Virus record (IMG/VR): IMGVR_UViG_3300031456_000023
Span: 1 to 22,391 of that record
Source of the DNA: a virus
DNA length: 22,391 nt
Reading direction: 5' to 3' (one strand)
Shown: one piece after another, positions 8,218-22,391 of the stretch
Layout: every line of letters begins with the position of its first letter
Numbering within the stretch: the stretch's first letter is position 1
The notes under the pieces: model-generated
Database searches by the model: none
Told to the model about the DNA's origin: nothing
What the model saw: the letters and a program-made list of their open reading frames with translations, nothing else
Program-made: the position numbers and the translations under genes

Positions 8218-8637
8218 ATGGCCCGGATCAAGTCCATCGGTGACGTGCAAACCAAGGTCAATATCGAGGTGATCTCGGTCCCCGAGTGGGGCGACGCCGA
8301 CACCGAAATCTGCGTGCGCAACCTGGCCTCGGGCGAGGTCAGCACGTATCACAACAAGCTGATGGCCCAGCCCAAGGACAAGTCCCCGCATGTCACCGCG
8401 GGCAAGCTGCGGCACGCCAACGCCTGGTTGATCATCATGGGCAGCTGCGACGACAACGGGGATCCGATCTTCACGGAGATCGACATTCCCGAGCTGGAGC
8501 GCAAGGACAACGGCGGCGCGGCCAAGGTGGCCGACGCCATTCAGCGGCTGTCCGGCATCGGAGACTACGCGCAGTCGAGTGAGGCGCTGGCGGGAAAATC
8601 CGGCACCAACCAGGACTCGAATTCCGACTACGACTAG
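8218..8637 (+). CDS. Tail assembly chaperone, short frame (gpG-like)
   Basis: 139 residues made without frameshifting. Together with the frameshifted long form it chaperones the tape measure protein during tail assembly, as lambda gpG and gpGT do. Seen: an N-terminal VNIEVISVPEWGD strand unit, a central helical part (KLRHANAWLIIMGSCDDNGD, then AKVADAIQRLSGIG), and a disordered end after the slippery site (KSGTNQDSNSDYD). Sequence identity to lambda gpG is not visible. The call rests on position just before the tape measure, size, and the frameshift arrangement with the next frame. Confidence 0.85.
   Translation: MARIKSIGDVQTKVNIEVISVPEWGDADTEICVRNLASGEVSTYHNKLMAQPKDKSPHVTAGKLRHANAWLIIMGSCDDNGDPIFTEIDIPELERKDNGGAAKVADAIQRLSGIGDYAQSSEALAGKSGTNQDSNSDYD
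8592..8598 (+). promoter_or_regulatory. -1 programmed ribosomal frameshift slippery site GGGAAAA
   Basis: In the gpG-like frame the codons read GCG GGA AAA, so G GGA AAA is a canonical X XXY YYZ heptamer, almost the lambda G/GT site (GGGAAAG). After slipping -1 the ribosome reads ATC CGG CAC and runs without a stop into the downstream frame that ends at 8942. No strong downstream hairpin is apparent. The predicted long product is 127 + 114 = 241 residues. Confidence 0.9.
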
Positions 8638-8942
8638 CGAGCCACCTGCACATGACGGTGGGCGAGCTCGATGCCCGGATGTCCTGGCGGGAGATGCAGC
8701 TATGGGCGGCCTACGAACTCGTGGCCGGCCCACTCGGCCCGGTGCGGATGGATCACCTGATGTCCATCCTGGCGGCGGTCATCCGCAACACGTTCAGCAA
8801 GAAACGCAGCACGCCGGAACAGTTCCGCCCGAAGTGGGGGACCAAGGCTGGGCCGGCGGAACGCAAGACGCTGGGCCAGGACAGCACCACGCAGCTGCCC
8901 GAGTGGGCGCAGGAGCTGCGTGAGATCGAAGCGGCGGACTGA
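8598..8942 (+). CDS. Tail assembly chaperone, frameshift extension (gpT-like domain)
   Basis: This frame is entered by -1 frameshifting at 8592-8598 and adds 114 residues to the first 127 of the gpG-like protein. The linker reads IRHQPGLEFRLRLASHLH, followed by MTVGELDARMSWREMQLW, a pattern typical of gpT-like domains (MTVGEL..RMS..E...W). The end is basic, then acidic (FRPKWGTKAGPAERKTLG, LPEWAQELREIEAAD). There is an ATG at 8652, but no ribosome binding site before it, which supports expression only as the fusion. The domain is thought to bridge the tape measure and the tube subunits. The frame ends 20 bases before the tape measure gene. Confidence 0.88.
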   Translation: MRHQPGLEFRLRLASHLHMTVGELDARMSWREMQLWAAYELVAGPLGPVRMDHLMSILAAVIRNTFSKKRSTPEQFRPKWGTKAGPAERKTLGQDSTTQLPEWAQELREIEAAD

Positions 8943-11900: not shown

Positions 11901-13453
11901 GCGTGGTGCCCGATCCGGCCAAGGTCGGGCCAGTCCTGCAAGGTGTGGTGGCCCAAGGCGCGCAGACCACGGTTGTTCTGCCGGTGACCGCCGACACCGC
12001 CCAGGCCACCACCAACCTGAACAACTTGAACACCGCGGTCTCCACACTGAATCAGAGCGCGGCCACCCTGAACACCTCGCTGGGCCCGACCGCGACCAGC
12101 TTCGCCGCCATGGCGACCAGCCTGCCCACCGTGGCCGCCCAGGCCGCCCTGCTGGCCGTCTCGATGCCGACCGTGGCGACCCAGTTCGGCCTACTCGCCC
12201 CGACCAGCACCACCGTGGCCGCACAGTTCGCCCTGCTCGGGCCCTCCATGACGACCGTGGCCACCCAGATGGGTCTGCTCGGCCCGTCCAGCACGGTGGT
12301 GGCGACCCAGTTCGGCCTGCTCAACGGTTCGCTGCCCAACATCGCCACCCAGATGGGTCTGCTCGGCCCGTCCAGCACGGTGGTGGCGACCCAGTTCGGC
12401 CTGCTCGCCCCGACCAGCACCACCGTGGCAACCCAGTTCGGCCTGCTCGCGCCGACCAGCACGGTGGTGGCGACCCAGTTCGGCCTGCTCGGCCCATCGA
12501 GCACGATCGTGGCGACCCAGTTCGGTCTGCTCGGCCCGTCCAGCACGATCGTGGCGACCCAGTTCGGTCTGCTGTCCACCTCGCTGCCGATCGCGGCGAC
12601 CCAGTTCGGCCTGCTGGCGACCAGCCTGCCCACCGTGGCGCTGCAGTTCTCCGGGCTGGCCTCCTCGCTGCCCACCGTGGCCACCGCGCTAGCCAACGTC
12701 AACACCGCGCTGCTGGCGTTCGTGACCAACGTGCAGAACATGGTCACCAACACCGGCACCCAGCTCGATGCGCTGCTGGCCAAGGTACAAACGATCATGG
12801 ATCAGGTCGCGGCGGCGGTCGAGGCCGCCGGTACCCGGGTCACCGATGCCTGGCAGGCGGCCATGGATGCCCTGGTCCAAGGCACGCAGACCGGAATGCA
12901 GGATGTCGCCAACGTCATCCAAGACACGATGAATGCGATCTTGGATTACTTCGAGGCCCTGTATGCGATCTTCGAGGCGGAGGGCACCAACCTCGGTATT
13001 TCGTTCGTGAATGGCCTGCTGTCTCAGGTGCAGAACGCGTACAACGCGGGCGTGGCGCTCGGCTCGGCGGCGGCAAAGGGCATCAACGCCGGCATTGCCT
13101 CGGGCTCGCCCTCGAAGGAAGGCCTGGACGCTGGCAATAACCTGGGCTACTCGTTCGCCTCCGGCATCGACGAGACCACCCGCATTGTTGCCGCGTCCGC
13201 CGAGCAGCTCGGCCAGCTGGCGTCCAGCACGGCTAACGCCCAGCTCGGCGCCATGGTCAGTTCCGGCGACGTCGGGGTGGTGGGCACGATCTCCGACCCG
13301 GGTATGACGACGGGCGATGAACCGCCGATCGTGGTCAACAATGCGGTGACCGTGCAGCTGCCGACGGGTGAGTTCGTGCGGTTTGTCGATGGCCGGCTGG
13401 CGCGTAACAACAAGAACCTGAAGCGCGGCATCGAAGGGCAGCGGGACTACTGA
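8963..13453 (+). CDS. Tape measure protein
   Basis: 1496 residues, the largest complete gene here. Tape measure proteins line the tail lumen and set tail length; at 0.15 nm per residue this one predicts a tail of about 220 nm. Residues 1-300 are a series of VxIDxDxA..Q..L.. units and helices. About 309-348 is a strongly hydrophobic region (LIVFAVAAAFPLIAAAVVGL and on), with further hydrophobic stretches near 545-570 and 610-625. Residues 690-830 are charged coiled-coil-like (QATKDYGAASPEAAMAQ). Residues 1057-1238 contain 13 tandem 14-residue repeats. The end carries a SGSPSKEGLDAGNNLGYSFA motif, common near tape measure C-termini (SPSxxxxxxGxxxxxGxxxGI). No lytic enzyme domain is visible. It directly follows the chaperones, as expected. 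Confidence 0.95.
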   Translation: MASKNARLGIDVDMATANAQREADKIQRQMEQLAKLSPQIKVGANGAEVTRVAEEATAAVKAIPSQVKTSIDVDFAKAQVKLDQAQARLDELTHRGADVLIDANLAPIDRKIAIVNAGLDALRALQPTVTVQADIAKAETELVTLRDQATAISSRDYTVQLKAEVKEAKANVASLQAIVASVPNNVTVKFDASAAGITAATAQVIADLATVPDSKTLKFIADYQRALADIALLTAKIEALGKLKPSPEVQLQIDKANVQLLTLQAKLLDLERKKTNLRVDLDSSGAVKSLQLVENEVVKTGSSLSRMQLIVFAVAAAFPLIAAAVVGLPAIIALIAVPIAAVITGLEGIKQAALPLKAAFAQVQGAVSAAFEKGLAPAIANINKILPALSKGLSGAATSLSAIATQVTAVVSSSAGLSGLSIIFDQVNTVLASLGPSLATLTQNIMTLASQALTGLSGLGQVMTDIGAAWTSAIAEMSQTGTVQAAVAALIQVFGSLMKLLPPLVELGAKLMAAFGPALASALDAIASILSALAGPLSGVTTAVLGAVAAWKLLQLAVKGVTAVVGAVSSTLGTAVTSMRNFGTSAATSGTGVAAAESATSKFTGVLGKIGNALPIVGAVLIGLGEAYKASIPDIEGTASAMTAGGAAAEAASQKFAEQNAHFDEGSIAAKLFGASQADLTAEIDKQVAAMSPLAAAQAKVNLAQQALTQATKDYGAASPEAAMAQQTLTQRVNESEAAQRAAGTATRTTTQAIKDQLSAVQGLINASLGYSGALLNVESAQKNVNQAIKDHGAGSLEARQAVQSLEEANNALAVAAQNQAEALTKTLGPQASAAAGALAYGAGIANVAATQSGPAAAAAKTWLTTMDDATQQMITAASKASGLKTAIVTLPDGKKIEIVADPSKIPQVIADYQKKIAGSPGQPPVIPTTTPGVGNAMAESQKTAGGTVLGPQVQPNGQAVNPFLQNLVTQFGGTTLPPGVVPDPAKVGPVLQGVVAQGAQTTVVLPVTADTAQATTNLNNLNTAVSTLNQSAATLNTSLGPTATSFAAMATSLPTVAAQAALLAVSMPTVATQFGLLAPTSTTVAAQFALLGPSMTTVATQMGLLGPSSTVVATQFGLLNGSLPNIATQMGLLGPSSTVVATQFGLLAPTSTTVATQFGLLAPTSTVVATQFGLLGPSSTIVATQFGLLGPSSTIVATQFGLLSTSLPIAATQFGLLATSLPTVALQFSGLASSLPTVATALANVNTALLAFVTNVQNMVTNTGTQLDALLAKVQTIMDQVAAAVEAAGTRVTDAWQAAMDALVQGTQTGMQDVANVIQDTMNAILDYFEALYAIFEAEGTNLGISFVNGLLSQVQNAYNAGVALGSAAAKGINAGIASGSPSKEGLDAGNNLGYSFASGIDETTRIVAASAEQLGQLASSTANAQLGAMVSSGDVGVVGTISDPGMTTGDEPPIVVNNAVTVQLPTGEFVRFVDGRLARNNKNLKRGIEGQRDY
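12131..12676 (+). repeat. 13 tandem 42-bp repeats (14 residues each) within the tape measure gene
   Basis: Successive 42-bp units, each in frame, encode variants of VATQFGLLGPSSTI. Best-kept positions are A-T/A-Q-F/M-G/A-LL, with a variable six-residue turn (GPSSTV, APTSTT, NGSLPN, STSLPI). Units 9 (12467-12508) and 10 (12509-12550) encode identical peptides and differ at three bases. A 63-bp stretch is identical at 12260-12322 and 12344-12406. Outer units are more divergent, as expected when the array grows from its middle. These are coding repeats, not a CRISPR. Confidence 0.95.
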
Positions 13454-13463
13454 TGGGGGGCTC

Positions 13464-15149
13464 ATGCCGATAATCACCGTGCGCCCGGACGCCACGCTGC
13501 AGAAGGGCGTGTGGGACATCGTGGGGCCGGTCGGCGCGGCGGCTCACCAGGTGGTCAACGACGACAACGATCTGACCTGGTTGGAAGTCCCCGGGCTCAA
13601 ACAGGTGCTTAACGACGCCGACATCTGCAAGCTGAGCATCCAGGATTTCGATATCCCCACCGGGGCGAAGATCTTCGCCGTGCGCGCGCGGGCCCGGGTG
13701 GAAAAGATCGTGGCCACCCCGGACAACCCCAACCCGCCGACGCCGCGCCCCGGTTGCGGGTTCCACCGCCATGGCTTCCTGGAGGATCTCCTCCGGTTCA
13801 TTTTCGTGATCCTGATGCTGTTCTTCTGCCCGAGGAAGCCCGTCCCGCCCGGCGGCACCGACCCGGGAGACCCGCCGTTGCCGGCCGAGTGGGGCAACGT
13901 TGACCTGCAGTACTACCTGGAGCAGCCCGGCGGCGGGGAGTGGACGGAGGAGTCGTTCAACGACTTCTTTGTGTCCCTGTTCCGCTCCGATGTCGAGGAC
14001 GTGACGCTGCGCTTCGGCGAGGTCTGGGTGGACCTGGAGTACAACGAGCAGCCCGTGGTGACCGTGACCGGGCCGGTGGGGCCGCTGACGGACATCACCC
14101 TGCCCACCACTACGTGGGAGTTCGTCGACCCCGAGGGCGACAGCCAGGCGGCGTTCTGGTGGCGCAGCTTCGATGAGGCCACCTACACCGCGCCGGACTT
14201 CGATCCAGCCACCGCCGTAGCGTTCGACGAAACACCGCGTCCCGACCTGAACGACGGCGGCTGGGTGCTCGGCGCCGACACCTTCTGGACGGCGCGCCGC
14301 GACCATCCGAACGGCAACTACCGGGCGTACGTCAAGACCAAGCAGGTCTGGAAGGGCATCGGGTCGCACGAGTCCGAGTGGGCCTATCACCAGTGGGCTC
14401 AGGAGGTGCCCGGCCCGCCCAGCCCGAGCCTCTCGGCGACGTTCGAGCCCGACCTGGACCGGGTGCGCCTGGACCTGCACGAGGGTGGCAGCTCACCGGC
14501 CACCGACACCTACGACATCTTCTATTCCGACGATCTCGCCTACACGTGGGAGCTCGTGCGGGACGGCTCCAAGGTCGACATTGACGCCGTGCGGGACTCG
14601 ACCATCTACGACTACGAAGCCCCGCACAACAAGGTCCGGCTCTACCGCGCGCAGGCCTTCCGGGTGCTCAACTCGATTTTGGTCACCTCGGGCTACTCGA
14701 ACGAGGTTTCCGTGATCGCCCGGATCGACGGATTCCGGCTGAAAGATCTGGTGGTGCCGGCGCTGTCGATGCGGCTCAACGTGCACGATCTGTCCTGGCA
14801 GGCGGTCGACGCGGTGGGCGTGGTCTATCCGCTCACCAGTACCGATCCAGCCGGCCGGGAGGCCCGCGCCATTGCCCTGGTGGGGCCCGAGTACGGGGTC
14901 AAGGCCAAGATGGTGCTGACCTTCCGAACCGACGCGGAGTACGACGCGTTCATGCAGCTCAAACACACGCGGCGCCAGCTGTTCCTGCAGTACCCCACCG
15001 GCGAGCAGCACTACATCCAACTCCTCGGCGACATGGACTCCGGCAAGTGGATCATGAAGGGCGATCAGAACAAGCTGCGCCAGCCCTCGATCAGCTGGGT
15101 CGACGTGGACAAGCCGCCGGTGCCGATGCTGCGCAAGTTAAGGAGCTGA
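13464..15149 (+). CDS. Minor tail protein: jelly-roll + Fn3-like domains + Dit-like C-terminal domain
   Basis: 561 residues. Residues 1-80 and 143-192 together look like one beta-sandwich (GVWDIVGPVGAAAHQVV, IPTGAKIFAVRARARVEK, then DVTLRFGEVWVDLEYNEQP). They are interrupted at 84-142 by a Pro-rich insert holding a hydrophobic stretch, LLRFIFVILMLFF, at 109-121. Residues about 193-425 contain two Fn3-like modules (VTVTGPVGPL ... NYRAYVKTKQVW; PSLSATFEPDLDRVRLDL ... SGYSNEVSVI). Residues 428-561 (FRLKDLVVPALSMRLNVHD to PSISWVDVDKP) match the distal-tail (Dit)-type domain that links tube and baseplate hub. The gene follows the tape measure, the usual place of the Dit gene. The start has a G-rich site just upstream. 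Confidence 0.82.
   Translation: MPIITVRPDATLQKGVWDIVGPVGAAAHQVVNDDNDLTWLEVPGLKQVLNDADICKLSIQDFDIPTGAKIFAVRARARVEKIVATPDNPNPPTPRPGCGFHRHGFLEDLLRFIFVILMLFFCPRKPVPPGGTDPGDPPLPAEWGNVDLQYYLEQPGGGEWTEESFNDFFVSLFRSDVEDVTLRFGEVWVDLEYNEQPVVTVTGPVGPLTDITLPTTTWEFVDPEGDSQAAFWWRSFDEATYTAPDFDPATAVAFDETPRPDLNDGGWVLGADTFWTARRDHPNGNYRAYVKTKQVWKGIGSHESEWAYHQWAQEVPGPPSPSLSATFEPDLDRVRLDLHEGGSSPATDTYDIFYSDDLAYTWELVRDGSKVDIDAVRDSTIYDYEAPHNKVRLYRAQAFRVLNSILVTSGYSNEVSVIARIDGFRLKDLVVPALSMRLNVHDLSWQAVDAVGVVYPLTSTDPAGREARAIALVGPEYGVKAKMVLTFRTDAEYDAFMQLKHTRRQLFLQYPTGEQHYIQLLGDMDSGKWIMKGDQNKLRQPSISWVDVDKPPVPMLRKLRS
15140..15145 (+). promoter_or_regulatory. Shine-Dalgarno AAGGAG for the hub N-terminal half
   Basis: AAGGAG inside the last codons of the Dit-like gene lies seven bases before the ATG at 15153, supporting separate translation of the short cistron. 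Confidence 0.7.
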
Positions 15150-15152
15150 CCC

Positions 15153-15527
15153 ATGCTCGGCAGCACCCCCGAACACGACGCCCTGGTGGTCACCACGCAC
15201 ATCCACCGGCTCCGCTTCGAGGTCTGGCAGGATGACGCGTTCGTGATGACCTTGCCGGTGATCGACGGCGGGGTGGATCTGGACCGCAACAACAAGATCG
15301 TCGGCAGCTTCACCGCCACCATCGGCGACGCGGGCGGCCGGTTCTCCCCGGCCAGCATCCGCGACATTCTGAGCCCCATTGCCGGGACCGAGGTGAAGCC
15401 GTTCGCTGGGCTCGCCGTGCCGGTGCCGATCGATTACATCTCTCGCCTGGAGGACGCCGACGACTGGGCCGGCGGACGCGGGTACGGCACGGCCGTCACC
15501 CCCGAGGGCTACCTGACGATGGCCTGA
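15153..15527 (+). CDS. Baseplate hub protein, N-terminal half only (split gene)
   Basis: 124 residues. In actinophage minor tail proteins of the DUF5047 type, an N-terminal unit of form LPV.DG.V.(L/V)DR...I..SF...I.D..G..SP......LSP.GTE(V/L)... is followed in the same polypeptide by ...PLGVF.I...... Here the N-terminal unit is present (LPVIDGGVDLDRNNKIVGSF, ILSPIAGTEVKPFAGLAVP). It continues as DDWAGGRGYGTAVTPEGYLT and stops at TGA 15525-15527. The expected continuation, a beta-sandwich and then EEVFPLGVFNIND, reappears 1.3-1.6 kb downstream inside the gene at 15997. I read this as a hub protein broken into two cistrons by an inserted block. It may work as a two-chain hub or be a decayed fragment; its good ribosome binding site favours expression. 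Confidence 0.7.
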   Translation: MLGSTPEHDALVVTTHIHRLRFEVWQDDAFVMTLPVIDGGVDLDRNNKIVGSFTATIGDAGGRFSPASIRDILSPIAGTEVKPFAGLAVPVPIDYISRLEDADDWAGGRGYGTAVTPEGYLTMA

Positions 15528-15529
15528 CC

Positions 15530-15535
15530 GGAGGA
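15530..15535 (+). promoter_or_regulatory. Shine-Dalgarno GGAGGA for gene at 15541
   Basis: GGAGGA lies five bases before the ATG at 15541, within the 13-base gap after the short hub cistron. Confidence 0.75.
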
Positions 15536-15540
15536 CCCCC

Positions 15541-15993
15541 ATGCCACTGACCAACCCGGGCGTATTCAACATCGCCAAGGGAATCTGGCGGTACTACTGC
15601 ACGCTGCCCGGTTCTGATGACGCCATCATCTGGGTGTTGCTCAAGGCGCCCACCCAGTCCGACGACGTCATGAACAACTACGACAATTTGGCCTCGCTGA
15701 TCGCGCAGAACCCGGAGTGCAACCGGTCCAATTACGCCCGCAAGGTCACCACCTCGATGACCCCGACCCAGAACAACACCGCGAACACCGCCGACGTCGA
15801 TGCCGCTGACCAGACCTGGGCCGCGCTGGTCACCGGGGACTCACTCGGCGGGCTGGTGCTCGCCTACCGGCCGGCCAGCAACTCCAACGACGGCGCCTGC
15901 ATCCCGCTGTTCTACTACCCGTTCGTCGGCCCCACCAACGGCTCCGACGTGGTCGCCGCGGTGCACGCCGCCGGCCTGGCCGGTGCCGCCTAG
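15541..15993 (+). CDS. Conserved phage tail-region protein of unknown function
   Basis: 150 residues. It matches a protein type often seen among tail genes of actinophages and other siphoviruses: an opening GVFNIAKGIWRYYC, then AIIWVLLKAPTQSDDVMNNY, DNLASLIAQNPECNRSNYAR, DVDAADQTWAALVTGDSLGG, LVLAYRP, then IPLFYYPFVGPTNGSDVVAA ending Ala/Gly-rich. In that type, the A.N.AKG opening, the NYARK segment and the ADQTW segment recur. No catalytic role is known to me; a virion surface or tail-tip role is inferred from position. It lies inside the block that separates the two hub halves. Its TAG stop is the only barrier to the next gene, which is in the same frame. Confidence 0.75.
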   Translation: MPLTNPGVFNIAKGIWRYYCTLPGSDDAIIWVLLKAPTQSDDVMNNYDNLASLIAQNPECNRSNYARKVTTSMTPTQNNTANTADVDAADQTWAALVTGDSLGGLVLAYRPASNSNDGACIPLFYYPFVGPTNGSDVVAAVHAAGLAGAA

Positions 15994-15996
15994 CCC

Positions 15997-17928
15997 GTGG
16001 GCCTTACCCATTTCGACGTCTACAGCAACGTTGGGTTCACTACCTCCGCGCCCAACATTCCGCTGTACATCGGCACCCAGTGGCAGCCCGGTGACAAGCG
16101 GTTCATCTGGGTGGAGTGCGCCCCCGGGCTGACGTTCAGCCAGTTCGCCGGCTGGCAAAAAGTGCACGACCAGCTGATCAGCGGGTCGCGCCGGGTCGGC
16201 ATCTTCACCCGGGTCCTAGCGGCCGGTGACGGGGACGGTCAGCTGCAGTTCTCCACTGTGGGCGGGTGGGGCTACGTCGGGTTCACCGCGCGCGGTTGGG
16301 ACGCCTCGCAGACCCTGGCGCCGGCCAGCGGCGGCTCATCGAGCAACTCCGCCAGCACGGTTGCCCCTTCCGTGGCCACCGGGCTGGGCCGGCTGTTCAC
16401 GTTCCACACGGTGAGTGCCCCGGACAACCCGTCCGGCGCGTTCTGCTACTCCACCCCGGCCGGCATGACCCCGGAGATCTACCGCGCCGACCGGTGGGTG
16501 GCGGCCTCGGCTGGCCGCGTCACCTTGGCCATGTTCTCCGAGAACCGCACCACCGGAACCTCGGGCACCCGCACCGCCATCCAGTCTCCCAACGGCAACG
16601 GCACCGCGATCTACCCGGGGCCGTGGGGCGCAACGAGCCTGTTCATCCGCACCTTGCCGACCACCACGATCAATCTCGGCAAGGCGATCGAGACCGACAC
16701 CGCGCGGGCGGTGGCGCTGACCTACGGGCCGGTCACCATCGAGCTCGGCAAGGCCATCGAGACCGACACCGCGCGTGAGATCCGCAACCCGCTGATGACC
16801 GTCTGGGAGGCGCCGCCGGTCTACCTCAAACCCGGCATCCCGCTGGGCGGCTCCTCGGTCGCCTTCGATATCAACACCCCGGGCACTACCTCGGCGCAGA
16901 TTCAGTCGAGCGTGGACAACGGGGCCAGCTATCAGGACTGCGTGGACGGCTCCTCGGTGCCCCGCCTCGCGGTCGGCAAGATGGTCGCGCAGGTGGTGCT
17001 GTTCCGCGCCGTGCTGCGCCGCCACGCCGCCGGGGACACCCCGCCACAGCTGCGCCGCCTGGAGACCCGCATCACCCTGGACGCCACCCGCGAAGAGGTC
17101 TTCCCACTCGGCGTGTTCAACATCAATGACTCCGAGATGCAGGACTCCCTGGACGGGCTGACCCTGGAGATCTCCGGCGCCGACAGATCGCGGAAGGTCT
17201 CGCGCAACCGGTGGGAGACCACCTACGTGCTGTACCAGGGCACCAACGCCGGCACCGCCGTCCGCTCGATCATCGCGGACCGGTTGCCGGGCACTCAGTT
17301 CAACTTCGCCAGCACCGAAGAGATCGTGGGCACCCTGTTCCTCGGCGAGGACAGCAGCAACGATCCGCTGCAGGATGCGCAAGACGTCACCCTCGGCGCC
17401 GGCATGGAGCTCTATTGGGACCGGTACGGCGTGTGCACCTGGCGCCCCGAGCCGGACCCCGATATCGACATGCCGGTCTGGAAGTTCGAGGACAAGGTGT
17501 GGCCCACCATCCTCTCGGCCACCCGGCGGCTCTCGGACGCCAACACCTACAACCGGATCGTGGTGCTCGCCGAGGGCTCGGCCGTGGACGTTCCGGTTCG
17601 GGGCACCGCCGAGGATGAGGATCCGGCTAGCCCCACCTACGTGCTCGGCCGGTTCGGGCGCTCTACGCTGATCATCCGCTCGGACACCGCGCTGACCGGG
17701 CCGCAGTGTTACAAGGCCGCCCAGGCCGCGCTGCTGCGCCAGAAGGGCGCGACCGAGGAGGTCGAGCTGCAGGTGGTGCCGGTCTACAAACTGGAGCAGG
17801 GCGACATCATCGTTGCCGAGCGCGAGCTGTCCAAGCTGTCCGGCGCGTTCATCATCGACTCGATGCACCTGCCGTTCAGCCACCTCACTTCGATGCGGGT
17901 CACCTCGCGTCGCCAGCGCCTTACTTAA
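15997..17928 (+). CDS. Minor tail protein: jelly-roll adhesion module fused to C-terminal half of the baseplate hub
   Basis: 643 residues from a GTG three bases after the previous stop, with no clear ribosome binding site, so it is probably coupled. Residues 1-220 look like a jelly-roll surface module (GWQKVHDQLISGSRRVGIFT, QLQFSTVGGWGYVGFTARGW, CYSTPAGMTPEIYRADRWVA). Residues 225-265 hold two 23-residue-spaced LGKAIETDTAR stalk repeats. About 275-365 is a beta-sandwich (SVAFDINTPGTTSAQIQSSV ... PPQLRRLETRITLD). From about 370 comes the hub: EEVFPLGVFNINDSEMQDSL, ISGADRSRKVSRNRW, FLGEDSSNDPLQDAQDVTLG, RRLSDANTYNRIVVLAEGS, and a tail ending HLTSMRVTSRRQRLT, as in DUF5047-type/Tal-like baseplate proteins. 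The hub's N-terminal unit is missing here and is found at 15153. Confidence 0.8.
   Translation: MGLTHFDVYSNVGFTTSAPNIPLYIGTQWQPGDKRFIWVECAPGLTFSQFAGWQKVHDQLISGSRRVGIFTRVLAAGDGDGQLQFSTVGGWGYVGFTARGWDASQTLAPASGGSSSNSASTVAPSVATGLGRLFTFHTVSAPDNPSGAFCYSTPAGMTPEIYRADRWVAASAGRVTLAMFSENRTTGTSGTRTAIQSPNGNGTAIYPGPWGATSLFIRTLPTTTINLGKAIETDTARAVALTYGPVTIELGKAIETDTAREIRNPLMTVWEAPPVYLKPGIPLGGSSVAFDINTPGTTSAQIQSSVDNGASYQDCVDGSSVPRLAVGKMVAQVVLFRAVLRRHAAGDTPPQLRRLETRITLDATREEVFPLGVFNINDSEMQDSLDGLTLEISGADRSRKVSRNRWETTYVLYQGTNAGTAVRSIIADRLPGTQFNFASTEEIVGTLFLGEDSSNDPLQDAQDVTLGAGMELYWDRYGVCTWRPEPDPDIDMPVWKFEDKVWPTILSATRRLSDANTYNRIVVLAEGSAVDVPVRGTAEDEDPASPTYVLGRFGRSTLIIRSDTALTGPQCYKAAQAALLRQKGATEEVELQVVPVYKLEQGDIIVAERELSKLSGAFIIDSMHLPFSHLTSMRVTSRRQRLT
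16675..16775 (+). repeat. Two copies of the LGKAIETDTAR stalk motif
   Basis: A 32-bp segment coding LGKAIETDTAR occurs at 16675-16706 and again at 16744-16775, 69 bp apart. It differs by one base (GCG/GCC) within the unit. Short (L/I)G.A.ETDTA repeats join modules in actinophage tail proteins; they mark the linker between the jelly-roll and the hub part of this protein. Confidence 0.85.
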
Positions 17929-17939
17929 GGGGGGCAACT

Positions 17940-18296
17940 GTGACTATCACGGTCGGCAGTTTCAACTACCGCGAGGCCATGAGATGGGACGGCACGAACG
18001 GGCAAGATTTGTGCGACTGGCTGAACACCCACTTGCCTCCCCCGGGCGGTCCCACTGGCACTAAGCCCCCTTGGGAGGTGACCGACGCCGGCCCGCCACT
18101 GGTGATCGAAGGATGGAACGGATCGCCGCTAGGTACCAGCACCACAATTGTCACCATCGGGCTGAACAGCCTGGTCGGTTGGGGCCCGAACCTGGCTCCT
18201 GGGCCTATTCCGACTGTGCTTTCGGACGCCCAGTATTGGGAGGCGGGCAACGTGTTCGGACGGCCCGTTTCAGCTGGTGACGTTGAGGCGCTATGA
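17940..18296 (+). CDS. Small hypothetical tail-region protein with atypical codon use
   Basis: 118 residues from a GTG preceded by a run of six G directly after the upstream TAA. The frame is open further upstream (to 17706) inside the hub gene, but the hub's own frame is convincing there, so the GTG at 17940 is the start. Seen: TVGSFNYREAMRWDGTNGQD, LCDWLNTHLPPPGGPTG, then PPLVIEGWNGSPL, a possible small beta domain with an (R/Q)WDGTNG motif that recurs in short actinophage tail-region proteins of unknown role. By my count about 33 of 118 codons end in A or T, clearly more than in its neighbours, which suggests recent acquisition. It ends ATGA on the next gene. Confidence 0.75.
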   Translation: MTITVGSFNYREAMRWDGTNGQDLCDWLNTHLPPPGGPTGTKPPWEVTDAGPPLVIEGWNGSPLGTSTTIVTIGLNSLVGWGPNLAPGPIPTVLSDAQYWEAGNVFGRPVSAGDVEAL

Positions 18297-19009
18297 CTGC
18301 ACCGGCGCTCGTCATCCCCACCCAGCTGGTGCCCAGCCCCTTGGACGCCAACTCTCAGGCCCGGGTGCTGCGCAAGGACAAGCCGGTCAAGTCGCCGCCC
18401 CTGGAGCTGCGCGGCGGCCTGGTGACCGCGGTCGACATCGCCGCTGGCGAGTGCACCATCCGGCTCGGGGGCTCGGATACCGACGTGCCCAACGTGCCGC
18501 ACTTGAGCAACTACGTGCCCACCGTGGACGACTCGGTCAAGGTGCTGGTGGCCGGCAAGACCATGTACGTGCTCGACCGGATCACTAACGCCGGCCCGAG
18601 TGTGATCAGCCAGACCCAGCAGGCCAGCGTGCTGGCCGAAGACTTCACCACCAGCACGCTGTACAGCCTGCTCACCCAGGGCCCGGTTCTCTCTGATGTG
18701 CGCGTCGGCCCGTCGGGGCGGCTGCTGGTGCAGATCTCGTCCTTGGCCTACTCCGAGACTTCCAACACCCTGGCGCTGATGGGCGTGCTGCTCACCCACC
18801 AGGAGTACGCCTTCTCGGTCAACCCGCTGGCGATCAACAGTCAGATCATCTACTCGAAGACCTCGGCTGGCTTGGGGGTGGCAGCCAGCAAGGTGATCAT
18901 GTTTACCGACCTGCCTCCTGGCATCTACACCGCGCAGACTATGTACGCGTCCAACTCGGGCAATGCCTGTTACTTCTCGAACCGGCACATCTGGGCGATG
19001 CCGCTATGA
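18293..19009 (+). CDS. Minor tail protein: OB-like domain plus fibre-type knob
   Basis: 238 residues, ATG overlapping the previous stop. Residues about 38-98 (GGLVTAVDIAAGECTIRLGG ... DSVKVLVAGKTMYVLDRI) fit an OB-type barrel as used in baseplate and spike proteins. A short helical link (SVISQTQQASVLAEDF) leads to a beta-rich C-terminal domain (GPVLSDVRVGPSGRLLVQIS ... FSVNPLAI ... PPGIYTAQTMYASNS) ending CYFSNRHIWAMPL. A knob of this outline, ending in a FSNR(R/H)I...PL strand, is common at the C-terminus of actinophage tail-tip proteins and is a receptor-binding candidate. It is probably a trimer, which is inferred from the type. It overlaps the next gene by ATGA. Confidence 0.72.
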   Translation: MTAPALVIPTQLVPSPLDANSQARVLRKDKPVKSPPLELRGGLVTAVDIAAGECTIRLGGSDTDVPNVPHLSNYVPTVDDSVKVLVAGKTMYVLDRITNAGPSVISQTQQASVLAEDFTTSTLYSLLTQGPVLSDVRVGPSGRLLVQISSLAYSETSNTLALMGVLLTHQEYAFSVNPLAINSQIIYSKTSAGLGVAASKVIMFTDLPPGIYTAQTMYASNSGNACYFSNRHIWAMPL

Positions 19010-19626
19010 CCGCTGAAATGCCCGGCTACGACGCCAGCGCCCTGATGGACGCCGCCATGGCCAGCGCCCTGGTGGAGGCGCTGCGCGTACCGACCCAGCA
19101 GCTCGAAGTCACGCAGACCGAGGTCATGCTGGGCCCGGCGTGGGAGAAGCCCGGCCACCCGGTGGAGAACACCGAGCTGGACGCCGACCAGCTGCAGGCC
19201 GATTTCGCCCAAGCCCTCGGCCGCGACGTCGCCGTGGTGGCGCGCGCCGCCACCGAGAGCACCACCGGCGTGCTGCACGTGCTCGATGCCAAAACCGGTC
19301 ACCAACTCACCGTGGACCCCGAGCTCGTGGCCGCTGTGCTGGCCGAGCACGCACCGCCGGAGCCCGAGGAGGACCGGTTCGCCCGCGAGTACGACGACGC
19401 GGAGGACGACGCCGGCAGGTTGGCCGCGTACCGGGCGCACATCGGCCGCCAGCGTGACGAACAGGCTCGGGTCAGGTTCCTGGCCCAGCGGATGCGTCAG
19501 CGCCTCTCAGAAGCTTCTCCGAGGCTGTCCGGCCCAGCCGCCGCGCAGCCGCCGCGCCCGCAGGTGCCGCCGCCGGTTACCAGCCGCAACCCGTGGAACC
19601 GGCCCAACCGCGGACGGTCGAGCTGA
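19006..19626 (+). CDS. Hypothetical acidic helical protein upstream of the tailspike
   Basis: 206 residues, ATG overlapping the previous stop. Not recognised. Residues 1-50 are helical (ASALMDAAMASALVEALRVP). About 65-110 alternate helix and strand (LDADQLQADFAQALGRDVAV, TTGVLHVLDAKTGHQLTVDP). About 110-170 are highly charged and helical (EEDRFAREYDDAEDDAGRLA, RQRDEQARVRFLAQRMRQRL). The last 40 residues are Pro/Arg-rich. No membrane segment or enzyme motif is seen. Its final 34 bases or more overlap the tailspike frame, which lies in the -1 frame relative to it. It could be an assembly factor for the spike, or its N-terminal attachment part if frameshifting occurs, but I see no slippery heptamer in the overlap. 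Confidence 0.7.
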   Translation: MTAEMPGYDASALMDAAMASALVEALRVPTQQLEVTQTEVMLGPAWEKPGHPVENTELDADQLQADFAQALGRDVAVVARAATESTTGVLHVLDAKTGHQLTVDPELVAAVLAEHAPPEPEEDRFAREYDDAEDDAGRLAAYRAHIGRQRDEQARVRFLAQRMRQRLSEASPRLSGPAAAQPPRPQVPPPVTSRNPWNRPNRGRSS

Positions 19627-22391
19627 CCACCTACACGTGCACCCCGTCCGACAACCTGCAGCTGAAGATCAACGCGCTGTTGCCCGGGGACACCCTGTTG
19701 GTCGGCGGCGGCACCTACACCTACTCGAACCTGGTTATCGGGGTGTCCGGCTCGCCCGCCAACGAGATCAAGATCATCGGCGAGTGGAACGTGAACGGCA
19801 CCCACGCGGTGCTGATCTGGACCGGCGGCCCCACCACCGGCGAAGCGGCGATCAAGGTCACCGGCAACTACCTGCATATCGAGGGGTTCGACGTCTGGAA
19901 GTCGCCCCGGGCGATCGTGGTGTCCGGCGCGAGCCACGTGAAAATGCGCTCGATCTCGGCCATCTACTGCCGCAACGAGGCGGTGTGGATCAAGGACAAC
20001 AGCCACCACATCCTCTGCTGGTGGATGTCGATGGGGTCGGTCGACCTGCCGGCGGACAACTTCACCATCGCCTACCGGATCGGCAAGCCCAACGCCCAGT
20101 GGGCCAACGCCAACACCCCGGACGCCACCAACAACATCCACCTGTATACGTGCAGGTCGGATTGGAATCCGGGTTGGTCGGTGGCCGTGCACGAGGGTGC
20201 ACACCACGTGCTGGTGGAAGATCACATGTTCGATTCCAGCTCGGGCCCGGACCACCGCCCGGCGCTCGGCGCGGCCAACGGGGACGGCGGGTACTTCTCC
20301 CAAGGCAGTGACGTCCAGTTCCTGCGCTGCTGGGCGGTGGCCGTCACCAACAACTACTTCAAGATCAATAAGATCGTGGTGGGCGGTGTCACCTACGGGG
20401 TGCGGCAGGCGATCAAGGGTGGCGGCGGCCGCCCGTTCGGCATTCTGAACCCCGACGACTACGATCCGACCCTTTACCACGCGGCTATCGCCAGCAACAC
20501 CTTGGACCTCAAGGTCTACCGCAACTTTTTCGACGTCTACCAGATCGTGTTCCCCAGTTATGACGAGTCCGGCGGCGGGAACTGGGCAGCCACCGGGTTC
20601 CGCGTGCCGGGAGACCAGTACGTCAAGCTGGACATCGGCTCCCCGGCCCGGAACTACCGGCTGGCCAACGAACAGCTGCCGTTCGGCCAGTACAACCCGT
20701 GGGTGGACCTGCACTGGAAACAGAGCGGCTTCGAGACCACCGCGCCGCAGACCGCCGCCATCACCTACGGCATCGAGTTCGTCCTAGAAAAGACCGGCGG
20801 GTGGCTGGTCGGCTACGCCTACTGGCGCACAGTCGACTACATCAAACCCGACTTCGCCCGTCTCTATCACCTGGAAATGCCCGAGGGCGGAGTGGACTTC
20901 ACCAACGATTTCGCCCCCGCTCCGTTGGTGCCGGACTTCACTTCTTTCGAGGAATGGTATGTGGCCTACCAAGCCTGGTCGGTGGAGTACGTGAACTGGC
21001 TGAACAGCAGCCAGGAGGTCAAAGACTTCTACGCATCGCGGGCCCTGTTGACCACCTCGAAAGCACTGCCGTACCGAGGCGTACCGACTCAGCAGTACTG
21101 GCAGTACGAGTACCTGGATGCCGCGGTCCCCCTGGAGAAGAACCACCACTACGTCGCGGCGTTCCACCTGCCTCCGAACAGCACCATCCAGAGCGCGCAG
21201 GGCTGGACGTGCGGCCTGTTCGAGCAGGGCTTCTGGGGCCGCTCGTGGGGCGCCAACGGCATCCGCCAGGGCCCGGTGCTGGTGCCCGCCGTGGGCCAGA
21301 CCGAGCAGATCGCGGGCGACTCGGCCCGGTCTGGGTTCGACAACAGGGAGAACGGCCACAACACCGTGACCCGCACCATCACCGGGTTCGCCAACAAGGA
21401 ATCGTTCGGGCTCACCCCGCCACTACCCGGCGAACAGATCACCATGCCGGACGTCGGCATGCCGCTGTTCTCCGCCGGGCTGTCCATCGGCCCGATCATC
21501 TCGTTCGCCCGGCAGATCCCGGAGACCGTCACGGTCACCCCGGGCATGAACCTGCAAGACGTGCTCGACACCCGCATCCCCGGCGACACGGTGATCATCT
21601 CCGGCACGCACACCGGCGAGTTCGTGATGAAGCAATCGGGCAATCCGGTCAAGCCCATCAAGATCTTCTCCGACGGCACCGCCCGGCTGCGCTACCGGTT
21701 CGCCTCCCTGCCGGCGCTGCACATCAAGGCCAGCTATCTGTGGCTGCGCGGCCTGGCCCTGGAGAACGGCCGCTACGGGCTGCTCATCGAGAACTTCGTC
21801 CAGTCGGTCCGGGTGGAGGACTGCACGGTGGCGAACGTCCGGGACGACGGTTTCGTGGTCCAGGAGGACACGAAGGACGTTTGTTTCCTGTCCTGCTCGA
21901 CCACCGACACCGGGCTAGGGAAGATCACCGGCACCGGGTTCCGGATCGGCCGGCACGGCGGTAACTGGATGGCCGACGATCACCCCGACGCGTGCGAACG
22001 CATCCTGATCCTGGACTGCACGGTGACCCGGGCCTACGGGGCCGGCGTCACGTGCTGCGACGGCGCCACGCAGGTAGTCGTCAAGAACACCTCGGTCAAC
22101 CACGGCGCCGGCAACACCCCCGTCGGCGTCTCGGCCGGCACCTACTATGACCCGGCCGCCGGCTTCTGGTCCAAGGCCGACCGCATCCAGTTCATCGGCT
22201 GCACCGTGGTTTCCGCGCCGGGCGCCGGGTTCCTGATGTTCGACTCACAGTGGCGCCCCACCACCGCCGACTACGGCCGCGCGGTGGAGATCAAGGGCGG
22301 CAGCTCCACCGGCCAGGGCGACGCCGGGGTGGTGAGCCAGTCCGAGGGGCTCAAGGTGTACGCGGACTTCACCTCCACCTCACCGCGGATC
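19593..22391 (+). CDS. Large beta-helix tailspike / adsorption protein (3' truncated by window edge)
   Basis: The frame is open from 19458 to the right edge with no stop: at least 933 residues from the GTG at 19593, the only in-frame ATG/GTG in the early region. It has no good ribosome binding site, so the start is uncertain. Residues about 10-340 form a right-handed beta-helix with a polysaccharide-lyase-like opening (LLPGDTLLVGGGTYTYSNL, NEIKIIGE, AIKVTGNYLHIEGFDVW) and repeated short strands (EGAHHVLVEDHMFDSSSGPD). About 360-640 is a Trp/Tyr-rich beta region (NPWVDLHWKQSG, WLVGYAYWRTVDY, YWQYEYLDAAV). A second beta-helix opens at about 645 (TVTVTPGMNLQDVLD, IPGDTVIISGTHTGEF, KPIKIFSD) and continues to the edge. 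The openings resemble chondroitinase B/PL6-type folds, but catalytic residues cannot be assigned. A receptor-binding or capsule-degrading role is inferred. Confidence 0.82.
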   Translation, partial: MEPAQPRTVELTTYTCTPSDNLQLKINALLPGDTLLVGGGTYTYSNLVIGVSGSPANEIKIIGEWNVNGTHAVLIWTGGPTTGEAAIKVTGNYLHIEGFDVWKSPRAIVVSGASHVKMRSISAIYCRNEAVWIKDNSHHILCWWMSMGSVDLPADNFTIAYRIGKPNAQWANANTPDATNNIHLYTCRSDWNPGWSVAVHEGAHHVLVEDHMFDSSSGPDHRPALGAANGDGGYFSQGSDVQFLRCWAVAVTNNYFKINKIVVGGVTYGVRQAIKGGGGRPFGILNPDDYDPTLYHAAIASNTLDLKVYRNFFDVYQIVFPSYDESGGGNWAATGFRVPGDQYVKLDIGSPARNYRLANEQLPFGQYNPWVDLHWKQSGFETTAPQTAAITYGIEFVLEKTGGWLVGYAYWRTVDYIKPDFARLYHLEMPEGGVDFTNDFAPAPLVPDFTSFEEWYVAYQAWSVEYVNWLNSSQEVKDFYASRALLTTSKALPYRGVPTQQYWQYEYLDAAVPLEKNHHYVAAFHLPPNSTIQSAQGWTCGLFEQGFWGRSWGANGIRQGPVLVPAVGQTEQIAGDSARSGFDNRENGHNTVTRTITGFANKESFGLTPPLPGEQITMPDVGMPLFSAGLSIGPIISFARQIPETVTVTPGMNLQDVLDTRIPGDTVIISGTHTGEFVMKQSGNPVKPIKIFSDGTARLRYRFASLPALHIKASYLWLRGLALENGRYGLLIENFVQSVRVEDCTVANVRDDGFVVQEDTKDVCFLSCSTTDTGLGKITGTGFRIGRHGGNWMADDHPDACERILILDCTVTRAYGAGVTCCDGATQVVVKNTSVNHGAGNTPVGVSAGTYYDPAAGFWSKADRIQFIGCTVVSAPGAGFLMFDSQWRPTTADYGRAVEIKGGSSTGQGDAGVVSQSEGLKVYADFTSTSPRI

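Follow-up and report, generated by a model that had tools for sequence, protein, structure and literature searches.

Few parts of tailed phages and related injection machines are as conserved as the hub, which forms a closed trimeric ring. The siphophage hub, Tal, is a trimer whose gp27-like sub-domains 1 and 4 build a pseudo-hexameric ring on the Dit hexamer (PMC9437275). Tal and Dit proteins may bear binding or lytic modules in loops, and in the 'evolved' versions such adhesion or lytic modules occupy loops of the gp27-like or galectin domain (PMC7291167, PMC9437275). The known cases are one chain, and in the Brussowvirus Tal the insertion lies between sub-domains 3 and 4. Virion structural genes in two parts are also known from actinophages, in the form of the intron-split tail and capsid genes of Cluster J mycobacteriophages, and in the mycobacteriophages BAKA and LittleE a self-splicing intron is removed from the message (PMC3706429). 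Here we describe a different arrangement in the viral record IMGVR_UViG_3300031456_000023, of which all 22,391 bases (68% G+C; 'the window') were analysed and which comes from a soil-type actinobacterial phage. On sequence comparison, its hub gene is split between two cistrons in different frames, P1 and P3, with a gene of 150 amino acids (aa), P2, between them. The explanation that we favour, and regard as probable, is that a single-chain hub gene was interrupted by a cassette consisting of P2 and a jelly-roll/stalk gene, leaving a two-chain hub.

The two hub parts are recognised by matches that abut. A full-length hub profile, built from 31 sequences with no rows from the window, aligns residues 12-89 of P1 with hub positions 12-88 (expect value, E, 4e-11), and residues 359-641 of P3 with positions 86-374 (E 9e-60), the hub-matching part being the last 283 residues of that protein. 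The matches meet within three positions, and therefore no part of the hub core is missing. From its residue 1, P1 aligns with residues 1-87 of the REQ1, Jflix2 and Shagrat hubs, at an identity of only 20-30%, and it has no match in Pfam, PHROGs or NCBIfam. Because circularity was to be avoided, P1 was left out of a second profile, made from 12 hub N-termini, that was searched against all 273 open reading frames (ORFs) of at least 40 aa in the window. P1 was the only significant match (E 8e-7), the next-best ORF reaching E 2.2 and P3 E 3; by this profile, P3 holds no hub N-terminal domain. An earlier note on this DNA, made from the letters and their ORFs, had placed three ORFs in this region and had assigned the N-terminal unit of the hub to the first and the remainder to the end of the third. 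The positions and lengths that it gave are exact (Table 1), and its assignment agrees with the essentially non-overlapping matches found here.

For the larger part, in P3, the homology is extensive. Residues 366-640 match the phage tail hub ('minor tail protein') in 88 records by tblastn (Shagrat, E 3e-22), from phages of Rhodococcus, Streptomyces, Brevibacterium, Arthrobacter and other hosts, and the match begins only at about residue 93 of these hubs, most of which have a length of about 360-390 aa. P3 also matches PHROG 1887 (E 7e-36). In the case of DUF5047 (PF16466), the family named in the earlier note, the match in P3 is sub-threshold (E 0.009-0.047; 14.5-16.8 bits against a gathering threshold of 25) and starts at profile positions 50-53, and P1 has no match, whereas the intact Shagrat hub matches end to end (E 6e-14, 53 bits). 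The hub assignment thus rests on homologues and not on Pfam: the DUF5047 label stands by way of intact relatives, Shagrat being a clear member, and Pfam does not return it for either half alone.

The position of the break was located on an AlphaFold2 model of the intact REQ1 hub, made with its relatives (mean predicted local distance difference test score 87.6), which matches Mu gp44, T4 gp27, VgrG and related hubs with VIA-align Z of 18-25 and root-mean-square deviations of 3.2-4.5 over about 300 residues. Domain I of this model has strands at residues 17-25, 31-44, 51-59, 79-87, 93-97, 101-111 and 119-128, and the break falls in the beta-hairpin turn at 88-92, between the fourth and fifth of them. 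According to the model, the domain that is cut is the first, gp27/Mu gp44-like domain of the hub, and homology to the intact hub would give four of its seven strands to P1 and three to P3. The suggestion that the break lies inside a domain therefore holds; the further suggestion that the domain in question is the beta-sandwich of P3 does not, since residues 90-124 of P1, which had been read as the start of that sandwich, are unrecognisable as such, and no hub with a domain like P3 263-358 was found among the hubs compared.

How unusual this arrangement is can be judged from a census of the non-redundant hub loci fetched in this analysis. In 45 distinct hubs the two parts follow each other without a gap in a single ORF, and one gene likewise encodes each of three Arthrobacter hubs (415-417 aa); in intact hubs, the hub part is about 352-390 aa. 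Five actinophage hubs, those of Gordonia phages Jumbo, Woes and GordDuk1, Tsukamurella phage TIN3 and Rhodococcus phage Reynauld, also encode both parts in a single ORF, but with 207-361 additional residues in between, near the site of the break. The remaining loci are contig-end fragments or, in one instance, a plain frameshift (two hubs at contig ends, L127 and L146, were left out), and none of the hub loci fetched has a hub split by a gene. The claim that inserted tail-module genes divide a hub gene that is single in its relatives is thus upheld. The frameshifted locus (L128, 1108-2299) is a DUF5047-type hub in a short contig, and its frameshift may reflect sequencing error or decay.

Single-chain homologues covering both halves, which the earlier note had proposed should be sought, include REQ1, Shagrat, Streptomyces phage AbbeyMikolon and a viral contig, 3300013132_000081. 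The homology of each to P1 and the final part of P3 extends along its whole length, but each is a single gene without interruption, and in no relative was a stand-alone P1 gene found. The hub on contig 3300013132_000081 (locus L123/L148) is the most P3-like, at 36% identity, and is syntenic with the window: its ORF has the P1 match at 180-239 and the P3 match at 247-502, seven residues apart, and, judged by sequence homology, the gene next to it is the counterpart of the tail gene at window positions 18293-19009, which establishes the synteny. The Arthrobacter phages nearest by portal, such as Kuleana (~46% identity to the window portal), carry a single hub gene, flanked by the gene that follows the tape measure and by the next tail gene. 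A hub slot following the tape measure and a Dit-like gene is an order common to the window, L123, Kuleana and AbbeyMikolon. Given these uninterrupted relatives, parsimony makes a single hub gene the ancestral state.

The five hubs with in-chain inserts, all PHROG 1887 members, are a close parallel within the family, in that their extra 207-361 residues interrupt domain I in the stretch where the window has its insertion; their inserts, however, are in frame in one polypeptide and have other content. By eye, the inserts of these Gordonia, Tsukamurella and Rhodococcus phage hubs, among them Jumbo gp23 and Woes gp26, look flavodoxin/amidotransferase-like, and that of Jumbo gp23 has a weak CBM_4_9 match. 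No split hub was found in a sample of 396 actinobacterial genomes, where the hub arrangement was resolved for the two strongest matches (L085 and L086, one ORF each) but not for weaker ones, and a P1 query of the same sample gave only matches of E 0.004-0.009, at loci where no hub was recognised. The open literature that was searched yielded no described case of a split hub, which is not proof of absence, and did not mention DUF5047.

The inserted genes have a life of their own. P2 is a full-length match to PHROG 26662, a family of unknown function (E 7e-23, profile positions 5-147 of 151), and compares at 41% with gp12 of Streptomyces phage Keanu. Profile scans placed its family at 45 viral and 15 genome loci, where the homologues are stand-alone proteins of ~148 aa. 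In Keanu, gp12 is followed by gp13, which has many LGxAxxxxxA-type repeats, and on viral contigs, too, a gene with LGxAxExDxA-type repeats comes after a P2 homologue; P3 itself has two LGKAIETDTA repeats after its N-terminal domain. At least two such stalk repeats (LGxAxETDxA-type) occur in ORFs downstream of P2 homologues at 35 of 60 loci, the window excluded, as against 2 of 60 shuffled versions and 3 of 527 upstream ORFs. With a stricter pattern and at least one repeat, the counts are 24/46 versus 0/420, the window being included. From this downstream linkage, P2 and the stalk-repeat gene are a recurring pair that is normally apart from the DUF5047-type hub, and they are a likely adhesion-type pair of actinophages and prophages. 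For instance, the Keanu pair lies between capsid and head-tail genes, and on contig 3300047444_000171 an intact hub and the P2/stalk cassette are ~28 kb apart. In the window, by contrast, the hub gene encloses the pair, and the stalk gene continues through a sandwich-like region into the hub.

Two long proteins encoded after P2-family genes on other contigs (L036, 6466-9714, and L015, 7558-11430) have C-terminal regions that are 53% identical, and the L036 protein is made up of a LamG domain, an ETDTA-type stalk and a region bearing a peptidoglycan-binding motif. A hub fusion in the stalk genes of L036 and Pam4_36 looked plausible by eye and was rejected, a profile comparison with the hub giving a probability of 0.2%. 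Bxb1 gp31 (tail wing arm) was likewise rejected as a relative of P2, its match of E 0.14 with three sequences being lost with 44.

Table 1. Features of the split hub locus and the genes that follow it (positions are those of the window)
Feature	Position	Strand	Basis
P1, hub N-terminal cistron, 124 aa	15153..15527	+	ORF, ATG start; profile and alignment matches
P1 C-terminal tail, residues 90-124, DDWAGGRGYGT...	15420..15524	+	alignments; no counterpart in intact hubs
P2, stand-alone protein, 150 aa	15541..15993	+	ORF, ATG start; PHROG 26662
TAG CCC GTG, P2 stop and P3 start in the same frame	15991..15999	+	sequence
P3, fusion protein, 643 aa	15997..17928	+	ORF, GTG start
P3 residues 1-225, beta-rich, probable jelly-roll or adhesion domain	15997..16671	+	sequence character only
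P3 stalk, two LGKAIETDTA repeats	16660..16782	+	motif also seen in the genes immediately after P2 homologues
P3 residues 263-358, sandwich-like linker domain	16783..17070	+	sequence comparison
P3 residues 359-641, rest of hub (positions 86-374)	17071..17919	+	profile, tblastn, model
Small gene after hub	17940..18296	+	position only
Tail gene, homologue of the gene right after the intact L123 hub	18293..19009	+	35% over 65 aa, E 2e-6

The three frames of P1, P2 and P3 are all open. P1 and P2 each have a Shine-Dalgarno sequence before the ATG (AAGGAG and GGAGG, respectively), and the G+C content by codon position in the three genes is like that of other genes, with 0.91-0.94 at the third position. 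P3 is composed of an N-terminal jelly-roll-like region, the stalk repeats, a sandwich-like region and the rest of the hub. The N-terminal region (residues 1-225) has no match in Pfam, PHROG, PDB sequences or phage tblastn, and no convincing match to the sandwich or the jelly-roll was found in other phages.

The interruption that we favour would have begun with a single-chain gp27/Tal-like tail hub gene. A cassette of P2 and a jelly-roll/stalk gene may have entered it at the beta-hairpin turn of domain I, and the downstream gene of the cassette would have become fused, through the sandwich-like domain, to the rest of the hub. Three proteins would now be made. P1 would supply four of the seven strands of domain I and complete this domain of P3 in trans at tail-tip assembly, giving a (P1+P3)3 ring. 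The arm of P3, consisting of the N-terminal domain, stalk and sandwich, would exit the ring at the hairpin, near the site of the Gordonia-type inserts, and bind the cell surface, and P2 would form a structural subunit of its own, probably in concert with the stalk arm. Established are both parts of the hub and the way they complement each other, the existence of relatives with an uninterrupted hub, and the occurrence of the P2 and stalk pair on its own elsewhere. The product is most likely a decorated hub, similar to an 'evolved Tal', whose decoration arrived as whole genes. Compared with evolved Tals, the location of the insertion, inside the gp27-like domain, fits, and the inserted region has no Pfam, PHROG or PDB-sequence match; the insertion differs in lying in the first domain and in containing an entire gene together with a stop and a new start.

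Several observations weigh against this explanation. Single-protein scans of viral contigs found no relatives of P1, full-length P3 or the portal, and no close relative of the window was found by hub profile in genome contigs. Since no close relative has the split, it is not demonstrably conserved under selection. In the AlphaFold model of P3, only the part beginning at about residue 371 is confident, and that part matches gp27/gp44/VgrG hub folds; the N-terminal 370 residues are of low confidence. The arginine pair that is conserved in most hubs is IV in the alignment of P1. Finally, no ribosome binding site is visible upstream of the P3 GTG codon. The earlier note had described a stop, a new ribosome binding site and a complete 150-residue gene between the halves; P2 has such a site, P3 none that is visible. 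Because P3 has no Shine-Dalgarno sequence and its GTG is 4 nucleotides past the in-frame P2 stop, this arrangement suggests that P3 is probably translated by termination and re-initiation.

All four alternatives to the interrupted hub are disfavoured. The one that survives best, though we consider it unlikely, is that P1 is vestigial and that P3 alone works as the hub, with its sandwich (residues 263-358) and the strand LRRLETRITLDA standing in for those that were lost. Residues 359-366 of P3 do align with hub positions 86-93, and P3 therefore has a counterpart of its own for the strand next to the break; P1, for its part, has lost the conserved RR pair. P1 nevertheless still has a strong Shine-Dalgarno sequence, an undamaged reading frame with the usual coding bias and a hub domain that can be recognised, with four of the seven domain I strands of the intact-hub model, and the profile gives P3 no hub N-terminal signal.

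Less probable still is an artefact, by which the split would be due to misassembly, sequencing error or a decayed, non-productive phage. The window is a 22.4 kb viral contig of unknown completeness, and a hub on another contig, that of L128, is broken by a plain frameshift. However, the order of the halves and their neighbours are as expected, the other structural genes are intact with uniform coding bias, and no single-base change would join the halves, because the intact 150-aa gene lies between them.

Ranking just behind the artefact is the idea that one chain is made after all, either through a self-splicing intron or through a frameshift and read-through of the TAG that would join P1, P2 and P3. 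Actinophage tail and capsid genes do get split by group I introns (PMC3706429), and P2 and P3 are in the same frame with a single TAG between them. The mycobacteriophage cases, however, involve splicing at the RNA level, whereas, in contrast to an intron, the insert in the window is coding over its whole length and the frame of P3 continues into the hub. There is no Rfam match in the window, nor in 15100-17300 at E up to 5, although divergent introns could escape such a search. A joined chain is further opposed by the Shine-Dalgarno sequence of P2 and by its stand-alone homologues of the same length, and, by eye, no classic slippery heptamer is present at the P1/P2 overlap. That P1 is an unrelated small tail protein merely resembling a hub N-terminus, as its low identity and absence from the family databases might suggest, is very improbable, since its match is colinear from residue 1, is unique among the 273 ORFs and ends exactly where that of P3 begins, and P1 occupies the slot directly upstream.

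The remainder of the window is the structural half of an actinobacterial siphophage-type genome, running from a portal with a Mu F-like end through prohead protease, capsid, tail genes and tape measure to the tail tip, with P1, P2 and P3 coming after the tape measure and the Dit-like gene. The product of the small gene after the hub has no family match in Pfam or PHROG; in AbbeyMikolon, Samy and Shagrat, the hub is likewise followed by small genes. Upstream, the ORFs at 8218-8637 and 8652-8942 form a tail assembly chaperone-like pair, the second ORF being in the -1 frame, with a classic slippery sequence, G GGA AAA, at 8592-8598; this is suggestive of a probable programmed frameshift of the lambda G/GT type. 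The tape measure gene has a 42/84-base tandem repeat at 12123-12685 that encodes VATQFGLLGPSST-like units. The Dit-like gene (13464-15149, 561 aa) has no phage tblastn matches, and near residue 113 its product has a strongly hydrophobic stretch, FIFVILMLFFC, followed by a proline-rich stretch, which is odd for a tail protein. At the other end, a long ORF (~19623-22391) runs off the contig and matches the right-handed beta-helix family PF13229 (E 9e-9), with a weak chondroitinase B match, and its product is a probable tailspike or depolymerase.

The interruption described here, unusual as it is, varies the theme of the decorated hub rather than founding a new kind of system. Somewhat better than even, in our estimation, are the chances that it is a naturally split gp27-like hub, in which the ring-forming domain I would be built from two chains and the hairpin loop would serve as the anchor of a receptor-binding arm. 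If so, it would be a natural case of fragment complementation in a virion, and would document a path by which an independent pair of adhesion genes can become an integral arm of the tail tip. If the hub tolerates two chains cut within domain I, the hairpin would represent a permissive point for adding host-binding arms; if the chains do not complement, the locus would instead show what share of domain I is dispensable or replaceable in a hub.

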